Assembly: GCA_012523265.1 (NCBI GenBank)
Contig: JAAYIU010000461.1
Location: 1-36,104 of the forward strand
Direction of reading: 5' to 3'
DNA length: 36,104 bases
DNA from: Bacteroidales bacterium
GTDB taxonomy: Bacteria > Bacteroidota > Bacteroidia > Bacteroidales > 4484-276
The notes below the pieces were generated by a model. That model worked only from the letters and a program-made list of their open reading frames with translations. It made no database searches and was not told the origin of the DNA. The translations under genes and the position numbers were made by a program. Below are positions 20,329 through 28,642 of the stretch, piece after piece. Each line of letters begins with the position of its first letter. The first letter of the stretch is position 1.

Positions 20329-23300
20329 TTACCTGATGACGATTTTTTGCGTCGTGGTTTGAATGGTATTGGTAAGCGTTACAAAGTAAACGCCTTTGGG
20401 TTGCTGCTGCAGATTGATAACTGCATGCTGCGTCACCTGGTTCTGATACATCAGTTGACCCTGCGCGTTGGTGATGGTTACGTCGCAAGGTTGATCGGTG
20501 ACGATGTTGATAAGTCCGTCGGAAGGATTGGGATAAATAACCGCGGATGATTCGTTGACACCGATTCCGGTAGCTCCGAATTTAAAGCCATCAATCACCG
20601 ACAATCCGTTGGTTGCGAACAATCCATCAGCATTAGCGAAAGCGGAATTATAAACCAAAGCTACATGCTCGGCAACGCCATTGCGGAAGATGCGGCACTG
20701 CATCGTTTGTTCTTCGGTCATGCCGTCGATGGCATCGGTGGTGTTGTCATCACCATACACCACCAGCGGGAGCACCGTTTCGTTACCGGAAAAAGTAGCC
20801 ATGCCGGTGCATAAACCATTTGCATCGAACATTCCGACTACATCGCCGGCCTGCAGCATTGCAAGCGCCTGTTGGCTGATGGCAATGATGTGCTGGTCGC
20901 CGGTAGCGGTCACGTCGTTCCACGAACTATTATTTTCGGGCTTGAAGGTTTTTGCGGCGGTAGCTTTAGAGAACTTACCATCAAAATCGATGGTGCCGGA
21001 TTGTGTAAATCTGGTAAGATATGCATAGCCGGGCGTGAGCACTTCGAGTGCGCCTTCGATACCGGGAACGATTCCGCCGGCAGGCCAATAGACATCGCCG
21101 GTTTTTATGTCAAACATAAATTCCACGGCATCGCCCAACGGCACAATTAAATCAGCAACATTTACCGGCTCCTGACTTAATACCGGAACAAAGGCTGTTC
21201 CTGGCTCAAATGCATATGTTTTGTCGGCAAGCTCAGCGCCTTCAAATACAAAGTATGACGACCCGGTGAGCTTGATTTTATATCCCTGGTGGGTATTCCA
21301 TTCGCCTAAGGTATTGATGGCGAACTCCGGCCAATAGATGCCGGTTTTTCCGAGCAGGATTACCAGATTGTTGTTTAAGGGTGCGAAAAGTTCTTCCATT
21401 GGAATTTTCCCGGGTTCCAGATTGCTCGATATTCCGCTCCAGCCACCAGAGTAGAGCATTGGCAAAGCCTCCGCCTCGTTGCAACCAGCACCGGGCGTTC
21501 CATACACAGCATCTCCGTCGGCGTTCAGTCCGGCAAATTTAGTAGATGCCGACCAGTAAGCCGGATCGTTGTTGTCCATAGAGGCATCGCAGAAAGTAAG
21601 CGAGGGGCCGTAACCATCTGGTTCCACAGGCCACAAACCACCGTCGTCGTAGGTTACCTCAGCACGCACGTTGCCCAGGGCGTCGGCCAACGTTATTTTT
21701 TCGCCACCATTGCTCAGGCCACCGCTTGTCCATTCCGGAGCTTCAAAACCAAACACTTGAGCAAATGCTGCTGTATTAACACAACTAATTGCATAATCGC
21801 CGGGGGCAAGCATCATATCCGGAAATTCAAAATTAACACCCGCAGTAAACGACCAGCCACCAAGATTAACCGCACTGATTCCGTTGTTGTAAATTTCGAT
21901 ATACTCCAGCACGTCCTGCCCTCCTTCGGGCGGATTGTACATTATCTCCGTGATCTTGATATCAAACGGCGGCACGATGGCGAAGAAATCATCGCTACCG
22001 TCGTCGGGGAGATTTTCTGCAGTACGCAGATTAATTTTATAGGAATCTCCTACCGGCTGCGTAACATCCCAGAGGAACGAACCCTGCTCGGCCGGAACAT
22101 CTTCTGCCAGCAATATTACATAGGTGGTAAGGTCCAGGAAAATATCCAGGGTAGCTTCGGCGAGATTGGTTTGCCAGGTAATGGTAAACATCGAACCCTG
22201 CTCTATCTCTTCGCCACCATTTGGCGCGGTCAGCAGCAGATAGTCGGGCACAACGATGTCGGCCAGGTTGCGGCTGGTCAGATATTCGCCTTCTGCGCGT
22301 GAGTTAGGAATACCTGTTACATCGGCAGCATCGGTGGGAATGGTTGTTGCAATATAATCCACACCATAAAAAGTAGTTCTAAACACACCACTTTCTGTAG
22401 CATCGCTGATGCCATAAAGCTTTCCATTGGCAAATGTAGCGCCGCCATCGGCAAACGTTACACCTTTTATCTCTACCAGCTCCGATTCATAATCCTCAAA
22501 GTTGGTAGCCAGATCATCCAAAGTAATAACCTGTGGAACAATGACATTATTGGTAGAAGTGGGAGCGCCAGGATCATTTGCAGGTATAAATTGGAACATG
22601 CCGCCATACACATTGATGGTACCCACGATGCCCGTTATGCCATCATAAATATTATAAAAGGTAGTGACCTTCCCGTCATAATCGTCGATGAGGACCCCGG
22701 CAGTAGCATCTTCGATAAATTTTTGGTTGCGGAAAGTTTGTTGGAAGGTGAGCACTACTTCGCCCGTAACTTTAAAATAATCCGTCACTCCATCGTAATA
22801 AGCAGCCCGCAATGCGGCCAGATTTTCCACTTCGATCACCGGCAATATTTCGTAGTTAGCGGTTGAAATATTGCTGGGGTCAAAACCATCAGCGTAAGCA
22901 ATGGCTTTGATAGATAATGAGGCCGTTACCGGAATGGGTGCGGTGTAGAGCGTTGCATTGTCGTCGGGATCGCTGCCATCGGTGGTGTAGTAAATTTCGG
23001 CGTTGGGCGTATCGCTGGTGAGCGTTACGTCAAAGCTTTCGAAATAGGTGCCAGAGGGTACCGAGAAGAGGGGGAGAGCAGCTACCGGAGTAGTTGATCC
23101 GCCACAGTTGGCGGTATGCATTCCGATGTTGCTATAATCATCGGCGTCAATAACAATCCACTCGCTGTTGGCAGCATTGGTACCTGCCGACGAAGCCCAG
23201 TCAGCGTTGGGGCTGCAAATATCGGCTTTGCGAATCAGTGTGTGGTTAGCAGTGGCATTGGTAACGCCTGCTACATCCCAGCCTGAACCCGGATCCGGGC

Positions 23301-24705
23301 CATCGGTTCCAATCACATCAATCATCTGCCAATTGCCATCAACATTTCTGGACAACCCTACCGCATCATCACCATTAAAATATGCCAAAGCACTGGTCAG
23401 ATCAGTTTCAGCAAGAATCTCCGGAATGGATTGACTATTGGCGATAACAAAAACATCACCATCGGCCAAAGTGCCCGAAAGCACTTCTGTATATTCGTCC
23501 CAGTTACCGCCATTGGAGATACGATGCACCTGATAATTTGAAAGATCGACAGCAGCACCGGTTCCATTGTAGATTTCTACGTGTTTATTATGACCATAGC
23601 TACCTTCGTAATATTCACTGTAAAACAAATCAGCAGCGCCAGTTACTTCGCACGGAGTGCAACTTCCAAAGCAAACAACCTCAAGCACGGTGTTTTCTTC
23701 GGCAACGTCAAGGTAGCGGTTGTATCCGCCAAAGCCATCATCTTCGCCACAATCGGCAGGTACAACTTCGGAAAAAGGCCAGTCGTTTCCATTAATGAAT
23801 TTGTAAAGAACATGGTCACCCACGTTGATGGTGGCGGTAAAAGTATAAATCCCATTTCCGGCATCGCTCATCAGCGAGCTTCCCGGATTCCAACCCTGGA
23901 AACTACCTACTACGTGTACTCCGTTGAGAGATACTTCCTCGTTGCTCATATCCACCTGAAAGGTGATGTCGGCAGTGGGAGCATCACAATCAACCCAGCT
24001 GGCAAAGCATACCGGGTCGAGCACAATGCCGCCAACCGGAACACTTAAAAAACGATTTCCGTTTTGGTTACAAGCACCGGGTACCGATTCATCCTGTCCC
24101 CAGCTATTGCCATTAACATACTTGAATTCGTAATAAGCGCCTTCCTCAAGCATGGTTGTGTAGGTATAAACCGCATCATGGGCCAATGACATGGCTGTAG
24201 CCCCGGGTGCCCAGCTCTGGAAACTCCCGGCAATATGGACGCCATCACCAGACACGGACTGTTCGGCCATATTCACCTGGAAGGTAACCTCCACCTCTGG
24301 CGGATTACAAACCGCACAACTGCCAAAGCAAACTGCTTCGAGCACCATCGCTGCGTCGCCAACAATTACCTGGCGGTTGCCGCCAAAAGCACAGCCAGGA
24401 GGTACGCTTTCGTCTGCGCCCCATGCAATGCCATTGATGTACTTAAAAGAATAAGTGCCAGCCGGAAGCTGCACCGTTAAAGCATACACGCTGGTGGCGC
24501 CCACCTGCGTCATCATGGTTTCGCCGGGCGCCCAATTGTTGGGGTAGCCCGCTTCGTTTTGAAAATCTCCGGCCACACTTACACCATCATCACTAACCGT
24601 TTGTTCCGACATGTCTACCTGAAAGGTAACGTCAACCTGCGCCATTGCGCAAGTGATAAATCCGCTGAAAATCAGCATTAAAAAACCAAGTAAAAATTTC
24701 TTCAT
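20329..24705 (-). CDS. T9SS-exported multidomain protein: 3x starch-binding-like, 2x lamin-tail, chitobiase-like, OB-fold-like
   Basis: The 1458-residue protein has a signal peptide (~1-22). Three ~105-residue repeats follow (24-134, 137-240, 246-352) of the pattern 'TFQVDM..V..DGVHVAGSFQ.W.PG', then 'YKFINGN.W', resembling CBM20/48 or AMPK-type glycogen-binding domains. Next come a lamin-tail-like domain (357-533, VEIYNGTGAAVDLSNYQ), a chitobiase C-terminal-like segment (545-618, AEIYYTTDGSDPDDNA), an OB-fold/DUF5689-like region (622-818) and a Kre9/KNH-like segment (824-911, LTAPNGGE). A second lamin-tail domain (914-1075) leads to the bipartite module (1083-1243), a further beta domain (1253-1377) and a T9SS type A sorting domain (1388-1458, YPNPSDG, ending KIVIR). 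It is likely a cell-surface or secreted polysaccharide-associated or adhesive protein. No catalytic domain was recognised. Confidence 0.88.
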   Translation of the reverse strand: MKKFLLGFLMLIFSGFITCAMAQVDVTFQVDMSEQTVSDDGVSVAGDFQNEAGYPNNWAPGETMMTQVGATSVYALTVQLPAGTYSFKYINGIAWGADESVPPGCAFGGNRQVIVGDAAMVLEAVCFGSCAVCNPPEVEVTFQVNMAEQSVSGDGVHIAGSFQSWAPGATAMSLAHDAVYTYTTMLEEGAYYEFKYVNGNSWGQDESVPGACNQNGNRFLSVPVGGIVLDPVCFASWVDCDAPTADITFQVDMSNEEVSLNGVHVVGSFQGWNPGSSLMSDAGNGIYTFTATINVGDHVLYKFINGNDWPFSEVVPADCGEDDGFGGYNRYLDVAEENTVLEVVCFGSCTPCEVTGAADLFYSEYYEGSYGHNKHVEIYNGTGAAVDLSNYQVHRISNGGNWDEYTEVLSGTLADGDVFVIANSQSIPEILAETDLTSALAYFNGDDAVGLSRNVDGNWQMIDVIGTDGPDPGSGWDVAGVTNATANHTLIRKADICSPNADWASSAGTNAANSEWIVIDADDYSNIGMHTANCGGSTTPVAALPLFSVPSGTYFESFDVTLTSDTPNAEIYYTTDGSDPDDNATLYTAPIPVTASLSIKAIAYADGFDPSNISTANYEILPVIEVENLAALRAAYYDGVTDYFKVTGEVVLTFQQTFRNQKFIEDATAGVLIDDYDGKVTTFYNIYDGITGIVGTINVYGGMFQFIPANDPGAPTSTNNVIVPQVITLDDLATNFEDYESELVEIKGVTFADGGATFANGKLYGISDATESGVFRTTFYGVDYIATTIPTDAADVTGIPNSRAEGEYLTSRNLADIVVPDYLLLTAPNGGEEIEQGSMFTITWQTNLAEATLDIFLDLTTYVILLAEDVPAEQGSFLWDVTQPVGDSYKINLRTAENLPDDGSDDFFAIVPPFDIKITEIMYNPPEGGQDVLEYIEIYNNGISAVNLGGWSFTAGVNFEFPDMMLAPGDYAISCVNTAAFAQVFGFEAPEWTSGGLSNGGEKITLADALGNVRAEVTYDDGGLWPVEPDGYGPSLTFCDASMDNNDPAYWSASTKFAGLNADGDAVYGTPGAGCNEAEALPMLYSGGWSGISSNLEPGKIPMEELFAPLNNNLVILLGKTGIYWPEFAINTLGEWNTHQGYKIKLTGSSYFVFEGAELADKTYAFEPGTAFVPVLSQEPVNVADLIVPLGDAVEFMFDIKTGDVYWPAGGIVPGIEGALEVLTPGYAYLTRFTQSGTIDFDGKFSKATAAKTFKPENNSSWNDVTATGDQHIIAISQQALAMLQAGDVVGMFDANGLCTGMATFSGNETVLPLVVYGDDNTTDAIDGMTEEQTMQCRIFRNGVAEHVALVYNSAFANADGLFATNGLSVIDGFKFGATGIGVNESSAVIYPNPSDGLINIVTDQPCDVTITNAQGQLMYQNQVTQHAVINLQQQPKGVYFVTLTNTIQTTTQKIVIR

Positions 24706-24841: not shown

Positions 24842-27800
24842 TTATTTGCCTTCGCAATCCGGATAAGTTAAGTTAATTGGCGCGCTCACCTTGATGAAAC
24901 AGGCACTTCCCGGCTGCAGCGTTTGCAGCGTGAAAACATTTCCGGCAGGATAATAAATGCGGTTGCTGCCCATTTCTTTTACAAAAATAATTTCGGCGTG
25001 CCCGCCAAATAAAGCAGCAGCATCCACCGGGCAGGAGCTTAGAACCGGCAGCCCGTTCCATCCTGTTGTTAATGCAGCAGTGTGGTCGGTGCTTTCGGTG
25101 CCGTAAAGCACCAGATAGAGCTGGCTGGTCAGGTTGATCTGATAGCCCTTGTCGGGATTCCAGTTGCCAATGGTATTCACGCCGTTGCCTGGCAGGTAAA
25201 CGTTACTAAAGTCCTGCGCCCCCAACAGTTTTTCCACGACGGGCTGCATGTTGGTTTCCATCGCAGGATTGTTCAGGTCGAGATAGGTGGAAATGCCCGA
25301 CAAGCCTGATTTCAGCAGGATGCCCTGTCCGGGAATGGCAAAGTTGGCTGCTCCGGGCGTAGCATAAACGGCCATTCCATCCGCATTAGTAAAAGCAAAA
25401 GTGGTTTCAGGTTTCCAATTGGTTCCGTCGTTGTTATCGGCAAAAGGATCAGTAAGTGCCAGCGAAGGGCCATAACCGTCGGGGGCTAGAGGCCATACAC
25501 CGCCGTCGTCGAAATTAACGATATCCACTTGCTGTCCGGCACTGTTCATCAACTCTAACGTTTCGCCGCTGTTGCTCAATCCGCCACCGGTCCATTGAAG
25601 CGCTTCGATGCCATATGAGTTTAGCATCACATTGGCGCGATAGGCCACTACCAGGTAGCTGTCGGGAGCAAGTTCGTAATCAGGAAACACAAATTCGACG
25701 CCCTGGCTGAAATAGTAGTTTTCGAGATTAACAGCGGAAGTTCCGCGGTTGTAAAGCTCGATAAACTCAGTAGTGTCAGTGCCGCTTTCGGGCGGATTGT
25801 ACATTATTTCATTAATAACAATATTATCAATAGGCTGGGGTGCCACAACGGAGAATGGAGCATCGCTGGCATCGAAGGGTGCGCCGGTAGCCAAACCCGA
25901 AATAATGACGGTATAATTACTACCCACCGCCTGTCCGGCAGGGATGGCCCATGCGTAGGTGCCTGCTGAGGCAGCAACGGCGCCTTCAAGAAGCGTTGTG
26001 TTGGCGCCGTCCGACAGTTCAATCTTCACATCGCCTTCGAAAGCCTGGCTCGTCCAGGTGATGTTGTGCAAAGTTCCCTGTTCCCACGATTCGCCACCAT
26101 TGGGCGAGGTTACGGTGATGGCGGGAACGATGGTTCCAACAATGCTAAACACGCCGTCGCTTTCGTCCGTGGGGATTCCGTCGGTGGTCTCGGAGATGAT
26201 GATTTTATAATTGTTGCTGGTAGCAAAATCAGCAGGAATTTCCCAATTCCACACACCAGCATTTACAGGCACATTTTCGGCAAGCGTCACTGTGGTGGCC
26301 AGTTGGGTATCGGTAAGCTCAATTTTTATTGTTCCGGTAAATCCGAGATACGTCCAGGTAACTTCCTGTGAGCTGCCTTGCGCAAAGGTTTCGCCGCCAT
26401 TAGGTGCGGTGAGCGTAAGCAGTTCTACGCCAAACACAGAATTGGCCATGCCGGGAGTGCCATCGTTTACCAGGCTGGCCGCCCAGTTTTCGGGCAGGGA
26501 GTTGTTGAGATTAGGATCGAGTAATTCCAGTGAAGGACCTTCGCCATCGGGTTCTGTTGGCCACAATCCGCCATCGGCATAAGTTACACTGTCAGCAATT
26601 GCCCCCTCAGTATCCAGAAGTACAATAGCTTCGCCGGTATTGTTGAGAGCACCAGAAAACGGCCCCACCACGTTGCTGATTCCGTAATGAGAAATAATTG
26701 TATCAGGCTTAATGGCAACTACCAGGTAGCCGCCATCGGCAATGGTGGTGCCGGCCTCAAAAGTATAGCTGATGGCATTGGTCAGGCTCCAGCCACCCAA
26801 ATCCACAGCAAAGCCACTGTTGTTGTAGAGTTCCAGATATTCATAATCGGCATCGTTGCCCAATTCATAGGCAGGATTGTACATAATTTCGTTGATGACA
26901 ATGTCGGGATCGGGCAGCGGCTCGATTACGGAGAAATTGTCGTCGCTCAGATCCAAAGGATCACCAGTATTTACACCCTGCACCTTTATTTTATAGGCAT
27001 CCCCTACCACAAACGACATGGGAATGGTCCATTCGTAAGCTCCGGTATTGATAACATTATCGGCCAGTAGAATATTGGTAAATGGCGCCTTGGTTACGGT
27101 AATTTTTACGTTGCCCCCAAAGTTGAGATTCAGCCAGGTAATATTGTAGGTTTCACCTTTTTGCCACACTTCGCCGCCATTGGGAGCGGTTACCTGAATA
27201 GCAGGAGGCACTTGGTTCTGGATGAGATCGTTGTTGCTGCGGGCTGTCAGGTAGTTGCCTTCAGAACGTGCATTGGGCAAACCGATAATGTCCATAGGAA
27301 CCGCCGGAATGGTGGTACCAATATAATCCACATCATAAAAAGTAGTTCTGAAATCGTATGCTACGGCAGCCGGACCGGTAATAGGATAAACCAATCCGTT
27401 GGCAAACGTTGCTCCTGCATCGGTAAAAGTAACACCATTAACACGTACCAGTTCTGATTCATAATTTTCAAAATTGGTAGTTAATTCCGTAAGTGTAATC
27501 ACTTGTGGTGCAGGATAATTTCCAGAGGAGACCGGGTCGCCAGGATCCTGTGTTGGTGTAAGTTGCATCATCCCGCCAAATTCGGCTACCTGCCCCCAAA
27601 GGTCGGTAATGCCGTCGCCAATTTCGAAATCGGAGGTGATGATGCCATTATTATCGTCGATTAAAATACCTGCTGTAGCATCCTGCACATATTTCTGGTT
27701 GCGGAATCCCTGCTGGAAGGTAAGGAAGGCTTCACCGGTGAAATGATAAAGGTGACCGGGAACTCCTGCACGAAGCGCAGCTATGGTGGTTACCGTTTCC

Positions 27801-28642
27801 GGGAAAACATATTGCGCTGTAGTAATGTAACTGGGATTGTAACCATCCAGAAAGGCTCTTGCTTTGAGTGTAGTTGTTTGTGAGATTGTAATCGGAATAG
27901 TGTAAGGCTGTGACAGCTCGGTGGGATCGCTGCCATCGGTGGTGTAGTAAATGGCAGCGCCGGGAGTTTCGCAGGTAATGGTAACGCTCACCGGATTGGT
28001 GTACGTGCCGCTGCCGGGCGTAAATACGGGCGTAGCCACGGTTGTGCCACCCTGGCATTCGGAGACGTGGAAGCCGAGATAAATCCATGTGTGTAATGGG
28101 TAAACGATCCATTGGGAGTCGTCGGCATTGGTTCCTGCCGAAAGCGCCCAGTCGGTGGTGGGGCTGCACACATTTGGTTTGCGTACAAGGGTGTGATCTT
28201 TGGTTCCGTCCGGTACGCCAGCCACCGGCCATCCCGCACCCGGGTCAGGACCTACCACACCAATAATGTCGATGAGTATATCATTTTTAAACAAACCCAT
28301 CACATCATCTCCATTAAAATTTATAACAGTGCTGTTAAGTGTATCAGCCTCTGCCACAATTTGAGGGTCAGCATCACTACGCGAAATAACATAAACTTCA
28401 TTATCAGCTAAAATTCCGCTTAAATCCATACTTGAACTAAAGTTAGCACCGTTTGTGCCTTTTTTTACCTGATATTCAGATAAGTCTATCGAAACTCCAG
28501 TCCCATTGTAAATGTCGACGTACTTGTTGTAACTCAGGCCTTCGCAGTACTACGAGAAGAAAAGCTCCGAGGCCTGCCCGAAGGTCATTAGCGTTAGTGC
28601 TGCGAAAAACGCTGTTAAAAAAATGTGTCGTAGATTTTTCAT
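24842..28642 (-). pseudogene. Lamin-tail/chitobiase-like/Kre9-like exoprotein gene interrupted by an in-frame amber codon
   Basis: ATG at 28642 opens a signal peptide (MKNLRHIFLTAFFAALTLMT, then FGQA) and runs into the first lamin-tail domain (ELFFS), where codon 31 is TAG (28550-28552). The same frame continues (YCEGLSYNKYVDIYNGTG) without another stop for 1235 codons. The paralogue at 20329-24705 has FYSEYYEGSYGHNKHVEIYN here, so the TAG replaces a Glu codon by one G-to-T change. Downstream domains are the rest of the lamin-tail, chitobiase-like, OB-fold/DUF5689-like, Kre9-like, a second lamin-tail, two more Kre9-like segments (each opening APNGGE or SPNGGE), a third lamin-tail and the bipartite module (last ~159 residues). 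It ends PDCEGK with no T9SS PNP tail. Re-initiation at Met72 (28429) would lose the signal peptide. Intactness downstream suggests a recent mutation or a sequence error. Confidence 0.8.

Follow-up and report, generated by a model that had tools for sequence, protein, structure and literature searches.

Isolated in-frame stops in constrained genes, private to one assembly and accompanied by similar cases elsewhere in it, are already known, either as single-nonsense pseudogene alleles or as consensus errors of MAGs. The gene described here differs from these in no respect, real mutation and base error being separable only by means of reads. It also recalls selenocysteine recoding, in which an open frame likewise runs on through an in-frame stop (TGA), but here the codon is the wrong one, is not conserved and is followed by no comparable structure. 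In architecture the gene resembles those encoding the Lamin-tail-domain (PF00932) multi-domain exoproteins of Bacteroidota, with which it shares a signal peptide and LTD, Fn3-associated/chitobiase-C-terminal and DUF5689 domains; unlike these, the gene and its orthologue lack a type IX sorting tail, and the first module is interrupted here. A further described family, ExeM (NF033680), is matched over part of its model only: the N-terminal module after the stop scored 34.5 bits against a cut-off of 1300 bits, and no nuclease domain was found by domain search, so on its sequence the gene would not encode an ExeM exonuclease.

Results

An amber codon in a multi-domain exoprotein gene

The window (the whole stretch of 36,104 nucleotides analysed here) carries on its minus strand a frame that starts with ATG at 28642, closes with TAA at 24844-24842 and, scanned over its 1266 codons, holds no other in-frame stop than a TAG at codon 31. 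The relevant features are as follows.

24842..28642, minus: interrupted exoprotein gene, 1266 codons plus TAA
28552-28550, minus: in-frame TAG, codon 31
28574..28642, minus: signal-peptide-like N-terminus, codons 1-23, end approximate (sequence read directly)
28049..28573, minus: N-terminal SEY module, LTD/ExeM-N-terminus-like, codons 24-198 (alignments and partial NF033680 match)
24851..25327, minus: C-terminal ~160-aa domain, codons 1106-1264, repeated widely in the genome
24842..28429, minus: longest ATG-started frame past the amber codon, 1195 aa, first ATG at 28429
20329..24705, minus: intact downstream paralogue, with SEY module and type IX sorting tail

Ahead of the amber codon, the 30 residues begin with a stretch resembling a signal peptide (N-terminus MKNLRHIFLTAFFAALTLMTFGQA) and continue as ASELFFS; the start of the gene is conserved in an intact orthologue from a congener, G003. 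Downstream lie 1235 open codons, which are not a product of chance because the frame carries clear domain matches: the SEY module, in the first strand of which the amber codon sits, followed by chitobiase-C-terminal/Fn3-associated and DUF5689 domains, Kre9/KNH-like Ig repeats and two LTD domains. The first-pass annotation had described a single amber codon in an otherwise intact 1266-codon exoprotein gene, with a signal peptide before it and 1235 uninterrupted codons after it; the translated frame agrees on both counts, as do the domains and the low dN/dS reported below. At face value, translation would stop with residue 30, shortly beyond the signal peptide, and the exoprotein would therefore not be made, a loss of product that we infer together with the recency of the stop. 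The 1195-aa frame that opens at 28429 has no signal peptide.

Most of the protein's 40 matches in its own genome fall in the C-terminal ~160-aa domain, for which no matching Pfam or NCBIfam model was found. This domain, with the motif GWxGISSY...INTLGxW...GWNxxPVLS...YPxC, occurs in dozens of copies per genome, forming the very end of some proteins and standing ahead of a type IX tail in others.

The stop is private to this assembly

No homologue aligned has a stop at the site of codon 31. Glu occupies it in 15/15 distinct homologues retrieved with a longer query and in 17/19 alignments with a short one; among the distinct homologues is a second congener, G001, whose SEY module is 72% identical over its length. 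The paralogue at 20329-24705 shares 46% identity with the amber gene over 742 aligned positions and has Glu in its SEY motif, as the first-pass annotation had stated; the accompanying proposal of GAG to TAG as the minimal change needs correcting, the paralogue's codon being GAA (used by 13/15 distinct homologues at this site) rather than GAG and therefore more than one step from TAG. The stop is thus private, with Glu in G001 and an intact syntenic orthologue in G003.

In G003 the whole block is syntenic and the orthologue runs intact to 1231 residues. Across windows spanning codons 301-1266, dN/dS between the amber gene and G003 was 0.12-0.21, similar to the 0.11-0.23 obtained for the intact paralogue, at a dS of ~0.75; the N-terminal module was left out of this comparison because G003 has another module there. 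For nearly all its history the gene was normally constrained. Of random single-base changes to genes like this one, 3.6% create a stop, and no second stop has arisen in 1235 codons, from which the lesion should be younger than ~2.3% neutral divergence.

These figures bear on whether the gene might be an older, decaying pseudogene, with an amber codon at its front and its type IX sorting tail lost at its back. A search against Pfam and NCBIfam did reveal no Por_Secre_tail in the amber gene, although the paralogue and upstream neighbours have one. However, the last residue is shared with the intact G003 orthologue (KVSAPINITYPDCGNK), which has no type IX sorting tail either, and further proteins in the genome likewise end at the ~160-aa domain. 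The tail-less end is therefore ancestral and not a second lesion; with no further stop and a low dN/dS besides, long-standing decay is extremely unlikely.

Readthrough and reassignment

Could the amber codon be decoded, whether through a suppressor tRNA, through pyrrolysine or under a context signal, to yield the complete protein? In favour of this, the frame beyond it is open and evolved under purifying selection. Nevertheless, prfA (RF1) is present above cut-off, and TAG terminates 80/301 (27%) long frames in the sampled genome, among them, as first noted from the window alone, the true ends of recJ, mutB and the 12360 gene. No match to PylS was found in the genome, whereas a control archaeon scored above cut-off in the same search. 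No CUA anticodon was present among the tRNAs found; this survey of a 93% complete genome is itself incomplete (tRNAs for Ile, Asp and several other isoacceptors were likewise missing), so a suppressor tRNA could be absent from the assembly. Folding of the 60 nt that follow TAG is weaker than that of shuffled sequences (z +1.35), none of the relatives is interrupted at this site, and the lone stops of this genome, described below, are of all three kinds. The earlier argument against reassignment is therefore strengthened by RF1, by the frequency of TAG as a stop, by the failure to find PylS or a CUA tRNA and by the lack of conservation, and programmed readthrough or reassignment is exceedingly improbable.

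Phase variation and module exchange

A reversible switch, in which the amber codon represents an OFF state flipped by slippage or by recombination with the neighbouring paralogue, would gain from the fact that N-terminal modules do move at this locus: in G003, another module stands in both the orthologue and the gene next to it. Set against this, codon 31 has no tandem repeat or homopolymer tract at which slippage could occur, no inverted repeats flanking it and no invertible element, and we know of no reversible switch that consists of a lone substitution. Moreover, at the protein level the two SEY modules share only about half of their residues, so there has been no recent conversion; they are old, diverged copies. 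Phase variation is very unlikely.

In G003 (C3:116168-123539; L051 and L052) both tandem paralogues have an ETFDNF module instead of SEY, and the two copies are 78.6% identical in DNA. By sequence comparison, then, the N-terminal module has been exchanged between species at this locus. That a population keeps both open and amber-closed forms which, with module exchange between the tandem paralogues, amount to a slow form of cell-surface variation would be a long shot.

Lone stops elsewhere in the assembly

The genome was sampled over ~0.9 Mb, and 436 kb of G003 was compared. Elsewhere in the same assembly (G000), lone stops of all three kinds interrupt at least eight further genes that are otherwise open, given here by contig.

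C36, TAG: peptidase C25 domain, profile positions 1-183 before the stop and 220-374 after it
C131, TAA: TPR-like protein
C38, TAG: outer-membrane-barrel-like protein
C292, TAA: secreted protein
C120, TAA: protein cut by a lone stop
C312, TAG: protein with the ~160-aa C-terminal domain
C2, TGA: protein with the ~160-aa C-terminal domain
C165: two stops

The amber codon is thus ordinary in this assembly, where lone stops interrupt at least nine genes including its own. The 436 kb of G003 showed no such gene. Stops already seen in them were the reason for choosing the window, C312 and C2, which partly biases the sample; without these three, ~6 lone stops remain over 0.85 Mb, whereas G003 has 0 over 0.44 Mb (P ~0.08), an excess that is only suggestive. 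The kinds of stop match expectation, under which the share of TAG would be 0.40-0.45.

At seven lone-stop sites, relatives indicate ancestral residues of Glu, Gly, Ser, Ser, Tyr, Tyr and Tyr, from which every one-step route to a stop is a transversion; Gln, Arg and Trp do not occur. Two HMM candidates (L174 and L179) were left out, having no homologue among the sampled loci. The chance of an all-transversion pattern, which rests on these seven sites and on the residues of relatives, is 0.16 at equal rates and 0.04 to 0.004 under ordinary transition bias. A mutator arising through loss of MutY was ruled out, MutY being intact.

Frameshifts were sought by a homology screen of the sampled genome with filtered genes, a tblastn screen with unfiltered frames having been swamped by shadow frames, and no convincing case was found. 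Frame-change candidates were set aside where their coordinates placed them on shadow strands, at contig starts or in overlapping N-termini, and several stops flagged among homologues as interruptions turned out to be the ordinary ends of genes. Codon usage by itself gave too little signal in a scan to detect even the amber at codon 31, and hexamer scans ranked it low owing to the short AT-rich start. Where the ancestral residue is clear, the lone stops are all transversions, and with no frameshifts seen this could be a sign of base errors or of damage in the assembly.

A conserved in-frame TGA in the same genome

One of the candidate stops turned out to be of a different kind, a conserved TGA in a protein of ~600 aa with a C-terminal type IX sorting domain.

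G000:C280:1642-3432, minus: TGA protein (L235), TGA at 2397; homologues L319-L336

Every full-length or near-full-length copy (17 copies, from 12/12 family genomes searched) has exactly one in-frame TGA, and the same holds for full-length homologues from further families of the order; the aligned copies share the motif CL(S/G/I)U(G/S)xTPPG around it. Over the 63 nt from the TGA, 15 copies are 83% identical and have in common a small hairpin, 15-43 nt downstream, that shows little covariation. SelB scored above cut-off in G000, G002, G003, G005 and G010, and tRNA-Sec in G002, G003, G005 and G010; the tRNA search of G000 itself did not find tRNA-Sec. In G003 the gene order is selB, selA, tRNA-Sec, a fucosidase-like gene and the TGA gene (selA and the fucosidase by reading of the sequence).

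Beyond the sorting tail, the protein matched no specific Pfam or NCBIfam model, and a literature search for a type-IX-exported selenoprotein returned nothing relevant. This is probably a family of exported selenoproteins, possibly an undescribed one, and it appears a better candidate for recoding than the amber gene.

Discussion

The TAG at codon 31 is very probably a private and recent single-base change to a stop, with nothing programmed about it, in the assembled copy of a gene that encodes an ordinary exported protein with several domains. Of the three options first offered for it, nonsense mutation and base-call error both survive, and phase-variation-like silencing lacks the slippage tract, repeat or invertible element that would support it. 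That the sampled strain really carries this nonsense allele has close to an even chance; a base error in the consensus of the draft genome is scarcely less credible. The all-transversion pattern and the lack of frameshifts lean towards substitution-type base errors, although the rate required, ~2-3 in 10,000 bases, is high for consensus sequence; the literature on consensus errors yielded nothing useful.

By itself the amber codon is of little weight, since lone stops like it occur repeatedly in this assembly, and citing it as an instance of recoding or switching would be unwarranted. The contrast that it affords is nonetheless useful: the amber codon has none of the marks of a truly recoded codon, whereas the conserved TGA in the same genome displays them.
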